This document shows, piece after piece, positions 30,998 through 33,506 of a DNA stretch of 64,000 nucleotides (its first letter is position 1; each line of letters starts with the position of its first letter). Location of the stretch: assembly GCF_001039005.1 (NCBI RefSeq), contig NZ_LDWR01000034.1, positions 1 through 64,000 of the forward strand. Direction: 5' to 3'. The position numbers were made by a program, and so were the translations under genes. Below the pieces are notes generated by a model. That model did not search any database. It saw nothing but the letters and a program-made list of their open reading frames with translations, and had not been told where the DNA came from. The stretch is from Burkholderia cepacia (GTDB lineage: Bacteria; Pseudomonadota; Gammaproteobacteria; Burkholderiales; Burkholderiaceae).

Positions 30998-31318
30998 GTA
31001 TTCATCCTCTCTGGGCATGTTTTTGCAAAAAGCTCCGATGGGCGAACCTACCACGAAGTTCCGCGGATCGGTGCTGTCATATGTGTGAATCGTTTGCCTG
31101 ATCCGGCATGGTTTGCGCGATGCGCAAAAACGACGTCGTGCGTCAATGACGGACAGGGCCGGGCCGGCAACGCGCGGCACGCCGCATGCACATGCACGGC
31201 GAACGGCTGCGGCAAGTGTTGCGCCGCACCTGGCACTGGCGCGGCATGGCGCGAATGATAGCAGTGCGCGGCGGCGTGTTGCACGAGTCGCGGGCCGGAG
31301 TCGATACGGGCCGGCGGT
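30998..31318. other. Intergenic stretch between retron RT and H-NS gene
   Basis: About 320 bp. The part next to the H-NS gene (30998-31110) is relatively AT-rich and probably carries its promoter. No coding sequence with supporting features is seen; in particular no effector-like gene lies directly after the RT. Confidence 0.5.
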
Positions 31319-32668
31319 TTACCGGTCGACGCCGTGGGCATCCCACGCGATCCGGTCGAACAGCGCGCGCAGCTTTGCGCCGCGCGCCGCGTTCAGCGCG
31401 GCCGCATGCGCGACGCGCCCGGCGAGATGCGCGCGGAAATCCGGATGCGCGCCGCGATTCTGCGAAGCCGGGCCGCGCCGGATGCAGTTGGTCAGGATGG
31501 CCTTCAGGAGATCGAACTCATCGCGCGCCAGGTTCGGATGACGATTGACCACCACGCCGGCCAGTTGCTGCCGCGTGCCGCGCCGCATCACGCGCGTCTT
31601 GCGCAATTGCAGCGCGAAGCCTTCCTCGAGTGCGATCGCGGCAACCCTGACCTGCAGCCGTTCGACTTCGCGCGCGAGTGCGCCGCCGCCCGAAAACGCG
31701 AGATCGTCGGCATAACGCGTGTAAGTCGCATCGAGCGAACGCGCGAGCGCGGCAAGCCGCATGTCGAACCGGAAAGCGCTCAGGTTCGCAAGCGCCGGCG
31801 ACGTCGGCGCGCCCTGCGGCAGGTGCCGTTCGCGATAGCGCTGCCGGCCGATCCAGTCGAACCGGTCGCGCAGGTCCCGCGCGAGCAGCCGTGCCGACGG
31901 CACACGATTGGTGCACAACCCGGTGAGCGTGCGCGCGACTTCGGCCGGATACCCGAGCGTCACGAACAGCGCATGGATGCGAGCGGCACGCACCGACACG
32001 AAGAAATCCGCGAGATCGAAGCGGACCACGACATCGCGATCCGCGTGCGGCGCCGCAAACGACACGATCCCGTGCCCCTTGCGGAAACCGTGTACGGCGC
32101 CGTGCGGCGCAATGCGATCGAGCAGCCCGTGCAGGATGCGGCGCTGCGCTTCGCGCAGCCGTCCCTTCGGGATCTCGACCAGGCGGCACCCGCCGCTGCG
32201 CTTGTCGACCGCAACGTACGTGTAGTGATGCAGCGGCGTGGCGCTGTCGCGCGCGTCGACGCGCCAGTGGTCGGACAGCCAGTCGAGTTCCGCAGCGCTC
32301 ATGCCGAGCCAGCCCGCGAGATCGCCGGGCGTCGCCCATTGCGGCACGTCGCAGCCGGCAAGCGGCGCCGGCAACGGCCGCTGGACCAGCGGCCGCCGCA
32401 CGACGCGGATCACGGTCGGCCGATGGTCGCCGTACCATGCGCTCACGAACCCGGATGTATCGGCTACGGCCACGGCAAGCGCATCGAGGTCGGCGTCGGC
32501 CCAGTTCGCGCCGAAGCGCGCGAGCGCGTCATCCGCGGCTTCGTGCGCCCAGGCCGGCGCATCGCCGAGCACGGCCGCAATCCGCGCGACGACACCGCCG
32601 CGTTCGGGCGAACCGGCCAGCATCGCTTCGGCAATCACGCGGGCGGTATCGCGCAAGGAGGAGTGCAT
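31319..32668 (-). CDS. Retron-type reverse transcriptase
   Basis: A 449-residue RT. Residues 1-~110 are a helical N-terminal extension; RT motifs follow: KRSGGCRLVEIPKGRLREAQRRIL (156-179), HGFRKGHG (193-200), motif A FDLADFF (217-223), motif B LPQGAPTSPALAN (283-295), catalytic YADD (319-322), then GVVVN (371-375) and LRALFDRIAW at the end. The long N-terminus and these motifs resemble the myxobacterial Mx162-like retron RTs. The VTG motif of many retrons is replaced by LAG and I cannot find an NAxxH motif, so the subgroup is uncertain. The start at 32668 is the first ATG after the msr-msd RNA, 12 bases from a2, without an evident ribosome site. An in-frame ATG at 32779 would run through the RNA and is rejected. 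Confidence 0.88.
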   Translation of the reverse strand: MHSSLRDTARVIAEAMLAGSPERGGVVARIAAVLGDAPAWAHEAADDALARFGANWADADLDALAVAVADTSGFVSAWYGDHRPTVIRVVRRPLVQRPLPAPLAGCDVPQWATPGDLAGWLGMSAAELDWLSDHWRVDARDSATPLHHYTYVAVDKRSGGCRLVEIPKGRLREAQRRILHGLLDRIAPHGAVHGFRKGHGIVSFAAPHADRDVVVRFDLADFFVSVRAARIHALFVTLGYPAEVARTLTGLCTNRVPSARLLARDLRDRFDWIGRQRYRERHLPQGAPTSPALANLSAFRFDMRLAALARSLDATYTRYADDLAFSGGGALAREVERLQVRVAAIALEEGFALQLRKTRVMRRGTRQQLAGVVVNRHPNLARDEFDLLKAILTNCIRRGPASQNRGAHPDFRAHLAGRVAHAAALNAARGAKLRALFDRIAWDAHGVDR

Positions 32669-32680
32669 GGGCAGAGATGG

Positions 32681-32848
32681 GCGGGACGATGAGTCAACGT
32701 GACCGGTACTGCGAGAGCCGCCGTTGCGCGACGCGCAACTCGGGCTCTTGCGACGCATCGGGGGGTCGATCTCATCCACGGGGTAGCCCCGTAGTCCTGG
32801 AACATCGAATGCCTGTTCCGGGCGTGTGCTTGACCCACCGCCCCGCGA
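32681..32848 (-). ncRNA. Retron msr-msd RNA (predicted)
   Basis: Read on the minus strand: a1 GCGGGGCGGTGGGTCAA (32846-32830) pairs along its full 17 bases with a2 TTGACTCATCGTCCCGC (32697-32681), with three G-U wobbles. AGC directly follows a1 (branch guanosine candidate at 32829). Two msr stem-loops come next: GGAACA/TGTTCC with a 9-base loop (32819-32799) and ACGGGG-CTA-CCCCGT (32792-32778). Then a long hairpin (32751-32711) with a 9-bp outer stem (one mismatch), a 3x3 internal loop and a perfect 7-bp inner stem capped by GTC, as expected for the msd. The order a1, branch G, msr loops, msd, a2, RT is the canonical retron layout. Confidence 0.82.
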
Positions 32849-32854
32849 CGCGAC

Positions 32855-32882
32855 TTTAATGGCCGGGAGGCCGGCATGTCAA
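32855..32882 (-). promoter_or_regulatory. Promoter of the retron transcript
   Basis: On the minus strand TTGACA (32882-32877), a 16-bp spacer and ATTAAA (32860-32855). The -35 is perfect, the -10 weak. The spacer consists almost wholly of the inverted repeat GCCGGCCTCCCGGCC. The expected start, about seven bases on, is 32848, two bases before a1. Confidence 0.6.
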
Positions 32883-32933
32883 ACGTGACGGCGATCTGGC
32901 GACGCCCCTGCGCGCCGGATCGCGTCGCGGTGC

Positions 32934-33506
32934 CTACCTGCACCGGGCAAACAGTTCGCTGAACGCGATCGGCGCGACGCCGACGCCCGCCATGTTGTTC
33001 AGCATCGCCGCCCAGGTCGCGTCCGCGACGCTCACCGGAAACGACCGTGCGCGATTGGCGAGCAGCCAGTAGGTGCGCGTCATGCCGTTGCTCATCGCGA
33101 CTTCGTAGCCACGTCCGTCGAGCCAGTAGCCGACCGGCGGCAGCTCGACCGGCTCGAGTCGGCCGGCCCGGAACGCGGCGGCGGCCGACGCGTACTTGCT
33201 GTCGAGCGGCATGATCCGGCGCGGCACGCAGTCCTGCGAATTCGGTTTCGGGAAGGCCGGGCTCGTGCCGAGCCACAGGCCGTAGAACGTGTCCGCGTCG
33301 AGATGCACGGCGTAGCGCTCCGTCTCGCCCGGCGTCGCCGCCAGATAGCAGTCGGCCTGGCCCGGAACGGCGACGCGCCACGTCGCGCGCTTCGCGTCCA
33401 GGTCGACCAGTTCGCTGGCCCGCGGGCGTGGCTGGATGGGAGATGGTCGTCCCGCGTCGCGCAGGTCGCGCGCGCGATCGAGTCCGATACGAAGACGTGT
33501 CAGCAT
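32934..33506 (-). CDS. Plasmid fertility inhibition factor-like protein
   Basis: A 190-residue soluble protein resembling the plasmid fertility inhibition factor family (FiwA/PFI-type), recognised from YGLWLGTSPAFPKP, DCVPRRIMPLDSKYA and GMTRTYWLLANRARSFPVSV. In plasmids such factors block conjugative transfer of a co-resident plasmid. Here it is chromosomal, on the same strand and 87 bp upstream of the retron a1, with its own ribosome site (GAGAGG). Whether it works with the retron is unknown. Family assignment is from memory of conserved motifs. Confidence 0.6.
   Translation of the reverse strand: MLTRLRIGLDRARDLRDAGRPSPIQPRPRASELVDLDAKRATWRVAVPGQADCYLAATPGETERYAVHLDADTFYGLWLGTSPAFPKPNSQDCVPRRIMPLDSKYASAAAAFRAGRLEPVELPPVGYWLDGRGYEVAMSNGMTRTYWLLANRARSFPVSVADATWAAMLNNMAGVGVAPIAFSELFARCR

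Follow-up and report, generated by a model that had tools for sequence, protein, structure and literature searches.

The stretch of DNA analysed here, called the window below, comprises 64,000 nt of Burkholderia cepacia (GCF_001039005.1, contig NZ_LDWR01000034.1, positions 1-64,000) and harbors on its minus strand a compact, roughly 1.6-kb system made up of a promoter, a non-coding RNA (ncRNA) and the gene of a reverse transcriptase (RT). From the anatomy of the RNA, the profile of the RT and its predicted fold, the locus is almost certainly a retron, in agreement with a first-pass annotation of the sequence, which had described it as a complete one. We propose, with a probability of roughly 60%, that ncRNA and RT together form a two-part retron acting as a phage-sensing guard; for the phage sensing taken by itself the chances are about even.

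The ncRNA, its promoter and covariation

The set of RNA elements required of a retron is present upstream of the RT gene: a duplex of two arms, a1 and a2, with an adjacent guanosine, msr stem-loops and an msd hairpin. The folded RNA spans about 32680-32846. Its 5' end is formed by the a1 arm (32830..32846, on the minus strand like all features below), with a predicted transcript start at about 32846. The a1 arm and the a2 arm (32681..32697) form a duplex of 17 pairs (32846-32830 with 32697-32681), among which three are G-U. Adjoining a1, where an AGC branch site had been claimed, AAGC was found with the candidate branch guanosine (32829). Then come msr stem-loop 1 (32799..32819; GGAACA...TGTTCC), for which fold and covariation give the 6 pairs expected, and msr stem-loop 2 (32776..32794; CTACGGGG-CTA-CCCCGTGG), to which 6 pairs had likewise been ascribed but which has 8, including one U-G. 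The msd hairpin (32711..32751) is 41 nt long, has an apical GTTGCGC/GCGCAAC stem and a covarying middle stem, and is backed by fold, covariation and conservation. The ATG of the RT gene at 32668 follows 12 bases past a2. Reading the minus strand thus bore out what the first-pass annotation had said of the duplex and its three G-U pairs, of the length of the msd hairpin and of the RT start. When folded, the 175-nt minus-strand RNA had an energy of -85.6 kcal/mol (z -3.1), a value reached by none of 200 shuffled sequences.

A sigma-70-like promoter (32853..32882), recognized by a promoter scan and by its conservation in the genus, lies where a TTGACA promoter had been predicted. TTGACA (32882-32877) is separated by an 18-nt spacer from TAAAGT (32858-32853); it is the single promoter-like site within positions 31000-33000, where 0.1 would be expected. 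The pattern TTGACA-18-TAAAGT/TACAGT/TACATT is present in 41 of 42 aligned loci of the genus (the exception is L075), and these 41 all share the same -35 hexamer, whereas identity over the 40 nt upstream averages 52%.

Covariation was analysed in an alignment of the regions upstream of the RT in 43 loci of the genus, five further loci being excluded because they were cut, broken or distant. The anatomy is retained in 42 of the 43; in the aligned upstream region of the remaining locus, L074, whose RT is shortened, no such RNA was found. Across the 42 loci 97.1% of the cells pair on the structure given above, and structures shifted by 1-3 columns score far worse. Both sides have changed in 10 of the 46 pairs, with 48 cells so changed vs 15.2 in shuffled alignments, a level that none of 500 shuffles reached; the cells counted are sequences and not events, and least numbers of events were computed for seven pairs. 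Compensation within the genus lies mostly in the msd stem, the middle part of which occurs as AGC/GCT, GGG/CCC, GAG/CTC and other variants, for which the RT tree implies 13 changes or more. On the other side stand pair 15-171 of a1/a2, which is unpaired in 17 of 42 loci, and pair 114-138, unpaired in 24 of 42; a1/a2 varies mainly on one side, so that its covariation alone is weak inside the genus. The earlier statement that such a duplex is unlikely to arise by chance is in keeping with these 42 homologues, which preserve the RNA anatomy through compensatory changes; their absence had been named as the finding that would speak against a retron.

Across 41 genomes identity amounts to 96% in a1, a2 and the msr and to 92% in the apical msd hairpin. 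Segment 104-117 (32738-32751), comprising the 5' side of the middle msd stem and the internal loop, is less conserved (70% identity) than the third codon positions of the RT gene (76%), and its pairing is mostly kept while the letters change.

A covariance model, R1, was built from the 42 RNAs of the genus. It matches the whole msr-msd ncRNA of the window (32680..32854) with 208 bits, a score obtained with a sequence of its own training set. Run with strict filters over 65 genomes of the genus, R1 matched 43, with one real copy each, located beside an RT or a piece of one; additional weak matches in G027 and G037 fell on the opposite strand at the same place. None of the 65 genomes had the RNA without the RT.

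The RNA was then followed in more distant relatives. Public genomes scanned with the RT alignment yielded at least 575 RT relatives, the best 80 of which, from many phyla, were used as the set of relatives. R1 matches 73 of these 80 on the strand of the RT, 69 of them just upstream of the expected RT start with E < 0.001 (63 of 74 when six Burkholderia loci are excluded). In L318 and L301 the match just upstream has an E value of 0.05-0.08, in L313 it overlaps the RT start by 86 nt, and in L327 the match, possibly a false one, falls within the expected N-terminal region. Seven of the 80 gave no match, and in three of these (L283, L305 and L308) the contig ends too close. In Myxococcus all ten RT loci that belong to the same lineage have an R1 match just upstream (E 5e-9 to 0.09), whereas the four other RTs examined have none there.

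An alignment of 71 rows (A3), consisting of 69 other loci, the RNA of the window and one short opposite-strand match, shows double changes in 43 of 46 pairs (774 cells vs 206); having been fitted to the model, the alignment is biased in favour of the structure. Stem-loop 2, with its GGGG and CCCC kept, is the most conserved stem in A3; CaAG at the putative branch site and the beginning of a2 are conserved as well.

The reverse transcriptase

The RT (31319..32668) has 449 amino acids and was recognized by retron profiles and by its predicted fold, retron RTs topping the list of structure matches. The catalytic YxDD is present as YADD (residues 319-322), which is invariant in 34 aligned RTs. Among the PADLOC profiles RT_other scores highest (473 bits, residues 4-445), followed by RT_outgroup (450 bits, residues 9-442) and RT_XIII (302 bits). 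Residues 1-102 (32363..32668) are predicted from an N-terminal profile and the modelled structure to form a five-helix domain, which marks the RT clade; no Pfam domain reached gathering score in this N-terminal part.

The VTG motif of region Y was correctly reported to be LAG. It was also reported that NAxxH is missing, which is misleading: region X is present as FAAPH (residues 204-208), in which A and H are kept and N is replaced. The best 80 relatives have the histidine in 80 and the A in 63 cases, and their first residue is F in 38, H in 14, N in 12, Y in 8, G in 7 and C in 1; LAG occurs in 25 of them and VTG in 16. Much of the clade departs from the two motifs in the same way, so the RT is no odd one out.

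A resemblance to the myxobacterial RTs with a long N-terminus had been noted as well. Full-length relatives do occur in 13 of 27 Myxococcus genomes; RT_XIII, however, is not the best profile. In a FastTree tree two Myxococcus RTs, L334 and L335, which from their length and region X we take to be of the Mxa1/Mxa2 type, fall outside the RT clade with 97 support, long branches being flagged. Judged by its profiles and the tree, the RT is a member of the clade that PADLOC labels RT_other/RT_outgroup and not of RT_XIII.

Distribution and inheritance

Forty-five of the 65 Burkholderia genomes have an RT match: in 42 the RT is uninterrupted, in G058 it is split over two contigs, in G048 it is shortened and in G059 two end pieces are left. 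In a gyrB tree of 64 genomes a clade of 39 contains 35 genomes with an uninterrupted RT, G058, G059 and two genomes without RT; of the other 25, seven have an uninterrupted RT, 17 have none and one is G048. (gyrB alone makes a weak species tree, in which 20 of 61 inner branches are open.) Most of the species sampled from the Burkholderia cepacia group have retained the retron. Outside the genus it is rare, RT matches (E 1e-60) being found in 8 of about 258 genomes of other genera of the family, 3 of these 8 being partial, and in 3 of 397 further genomes sampled from the phylum; one match at the level of the order has an in-frame stop.

The same H-NS-like gene lies downstream of the RT in 37 of 47 loci examined but not in the other 10, which indicates that the retron occupies more than one site. 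RT and gyrB distances are correlated (Mantel r 0.58 for synonymous distances, dS, and 0.59 for non-synonymous ones, dN; none of 999 permutations reaching these values, n = 41). G010 belongs to the gyrB clade of 39, yet its RT groups with those of G062 and G022 and shares their site, which speaks for exchange. From the correlation and this case, the retron looks largely vertically inherited within the genus, with some exchange. The G+C content at third codon positions (GC3) of the RT gene is host-like (0.859 vs 0.840 for gyrB). The median dN/dS of 0.28 (0.475 for residues 1-105 and 0.215 for the rest; gyrB 0.049) indicates that the RT is under purifying selection.

Fifteen genomes with an uninterrupted RT are assembled in four contigs or fewer. 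In 12 of them the RT is on a contig of 0.85-1.4 Mb (G002, G008, G018, G026, G032-G035, G037, G040, G042 and G056), one of which is named chromosome 3 (L252), and in G010, G022 and G030 it is on contigs of 3.7-4.8 Mb.

Several side observations concern these loci. A gene for a plasmid fertility inhibition factor (PFIN, PF22162; 32934-33506, minus strand) ends on the upstream side of the retron promoter, about 50 bases away, and such a gene lies upstream of the retron in 20 of 37 loci at the same site. In L042 and L045 a displacement by about 8 kb separates the H-NS-like gene from the RT. The RT remnant of G059 (L076, G059:C3) retains residues ~1-41 and 353-446 only and has no ncRNA match, and thus represents a natural deletion. 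Three genomes of the genus carry other, distant RTs with 28-38% identity (L079 in G004:C35, L077 in G047:C27 and L078 in G059:C1). The genome of the window contains a second, partial RVT_1 match (L002, G000:C16:3421-3606; 35.4 bits) in an open frame of 180 amino acids, a region in which no Rfam family reached gathering score. Each of 27 Myxococcus genomes (G710-G736) has 2 to 4 related RTs, indicating that several retron-type RT lineages coexist.

Proposed function and relation to known systems

According to the mechanism that we favour, a single promoter probably drives both ncRNA and RT. The RT would bind its own ncRNA, most likely via the invariant GGGG-NUA-CCCC of stem-loop 2, and DNA synthesis would be primed on the 2'-OH of G32829, the putative branch point, kept beside the template by the a1/a2 duplex. 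The msd would be copied from a presumed start at 32698 through the 41-nt hairpin, giving a branched molecule of RNA and DNA, perhaps 55 to 80 nt long, that contains a DNA hairpin and would stay bound to the RT. By analogy to retrons generally, this complex of the RT and its multicopy single-stranded DNA (msDNA) may be the working unit. The N-terminal five-helix domain, by docking, oligomerising or acting as effector, would most likely supply the role of a separate effector, since no other extra part was found to accompany the RT. The complex would most likely act as a phage-sensing guard with its output in this domain.

The first-pass annotation had pointed to the tripartite anti-phage retrons, a reading that found no support. 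A gene for an effector beside the RT or fused to it was not found, either in 24 divergent loci, in the best 80 loci or in the N-terminus as searched with Pfam, distant partners not having been searched for. Within 5 kb of the 24 loci no neighbour family recurs beyond loci at the same site and a few scattered families (3 to 6 loci, varied distances and strands). In the best 80 loci, many with short flanks, only two families recur in at least four loci outside Burkholderia, at scattered distances: ABC-type ATPases (8 loci) and what we read as possible sensor proteins (4 loci). The window's 14 neighbour genes do not resemble a defence island; their Pfam names are transport, metabolic and regulatory ones, and the PADLOC profiles gave one marginal hit and a match to an ABC transporter ATPase (best profile mad3, 102 bits), in our reading a generic ATPase match.

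A tripartite defence retron with its effector encoded elsewhere in the genome appears quite unlikely to us. An effector is described as typical of retrons (PMC12548924), some of which are said to lack a clear effector association (PMC8867640), and PADLOC lists such RTs among defence genes. A distant partner would, however, have to follow the retron across different sites, and the flanks of the 24 and of the 80 loci, many of them short, offer no recurring candidate beyond loci at a shared site and the scattered families. Even less can be said for a decaying relic of conserved appearance, which we regard as highly improbable. Broken copies do exist, both outside the genus (the 3 partial matches of 8 and the in-frame stop) and within it (G048 and G059), but the RT is uninterrupted in 42 of 65 genomes, YADD is invariant in the 34 aligned RTs, the promoter is kept, and purifying selection and compensatory RNA changes are evident.

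It is also conceivable, though in our estimate rather unlikely, that a working retron was domesticated for housekeeping, its msDNA hairpin binding or titrating a DNA-binding or repair protein of the host with no part in phage defence. The uninterrupted RT in 35 of the 39 members of a single gyrB clade, the common downstream gene in 37 of 47 loci, the host-like GC3, the 92% identity of the apical msd hairpin and the absence of defence genes among the 14 neighbours would all fit such a role, as would the probable vertical inheritance reported for many myxobacterial retrons (PMC6868368). It fits less well that losses and broken copies occur (G059, G048), that the N-terminal domain evolves fast and that 12 of 15 loci are on a contig of 0.85-1.4 Mb, by its size taken to be the third replicon; the pC3 megaplasmid is reported to be often lost in variants (PMC11925244). 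Although we favour the phage-sensing guard, the inheritance pattern leaves much room for housekeeping.

The locus is a good place to ask what solitary retrons without a known partner gene do: related genomes offer natural intact, broken and missing versions, R1 finds the RNA in many phyla, and the N-terminal domain is one obvious extra part. It could also provide DNA-writing tools with an RT and RNA beyond the usual E. coli types. Among the papers listed by searches of the open-licence literature, none was on this Burkholderia retron, judged by titles and the openings of abstracts.

Of the known systems, PADLOC RT_outgroup/RT_other (PDLC03740 and PDLC02949) are closest, being the best profiles over nearly the whole protein including the N-terminus (450 and 473 bits); the Myxococcus relative L337 scores 525 and 556. 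They are, however, profile labels, of which the limited literature examined yielded no experimentally studied member. L334 and L335 differ in having RT_XIII as best profile, in their place outside the clade and in lacking an N-terminal profile match. Among Rfam RNA families no likeness was found, none reaching gathering score in the window (best in the locus E 1.6). Retron Eco1 (Ec86; 7v9x), by its title solved with a separate effector, has a chain of 314 residues that aligns with residues 91-445 only (25% identity), which leaves the N-terminal domain without counterpart there. Mxa1 (Mx162) and Mxa2 (Mx65) are similar in their extended RT N-terminus and in inheritance within the host group, and Mx65, like Ec48, is reported to be substituted at the asparagine of NAxxH; the same source describes N-terminal extensions of unknown function in myxobacterial retron RTs and msDNA in 27 of 28 myxobacterial strains (PMC6868368). 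The clade is thus one already recognized by PADLOC profiles, and its pattern of inheritance in Burkholderia resembles that described for the myxobacteria.
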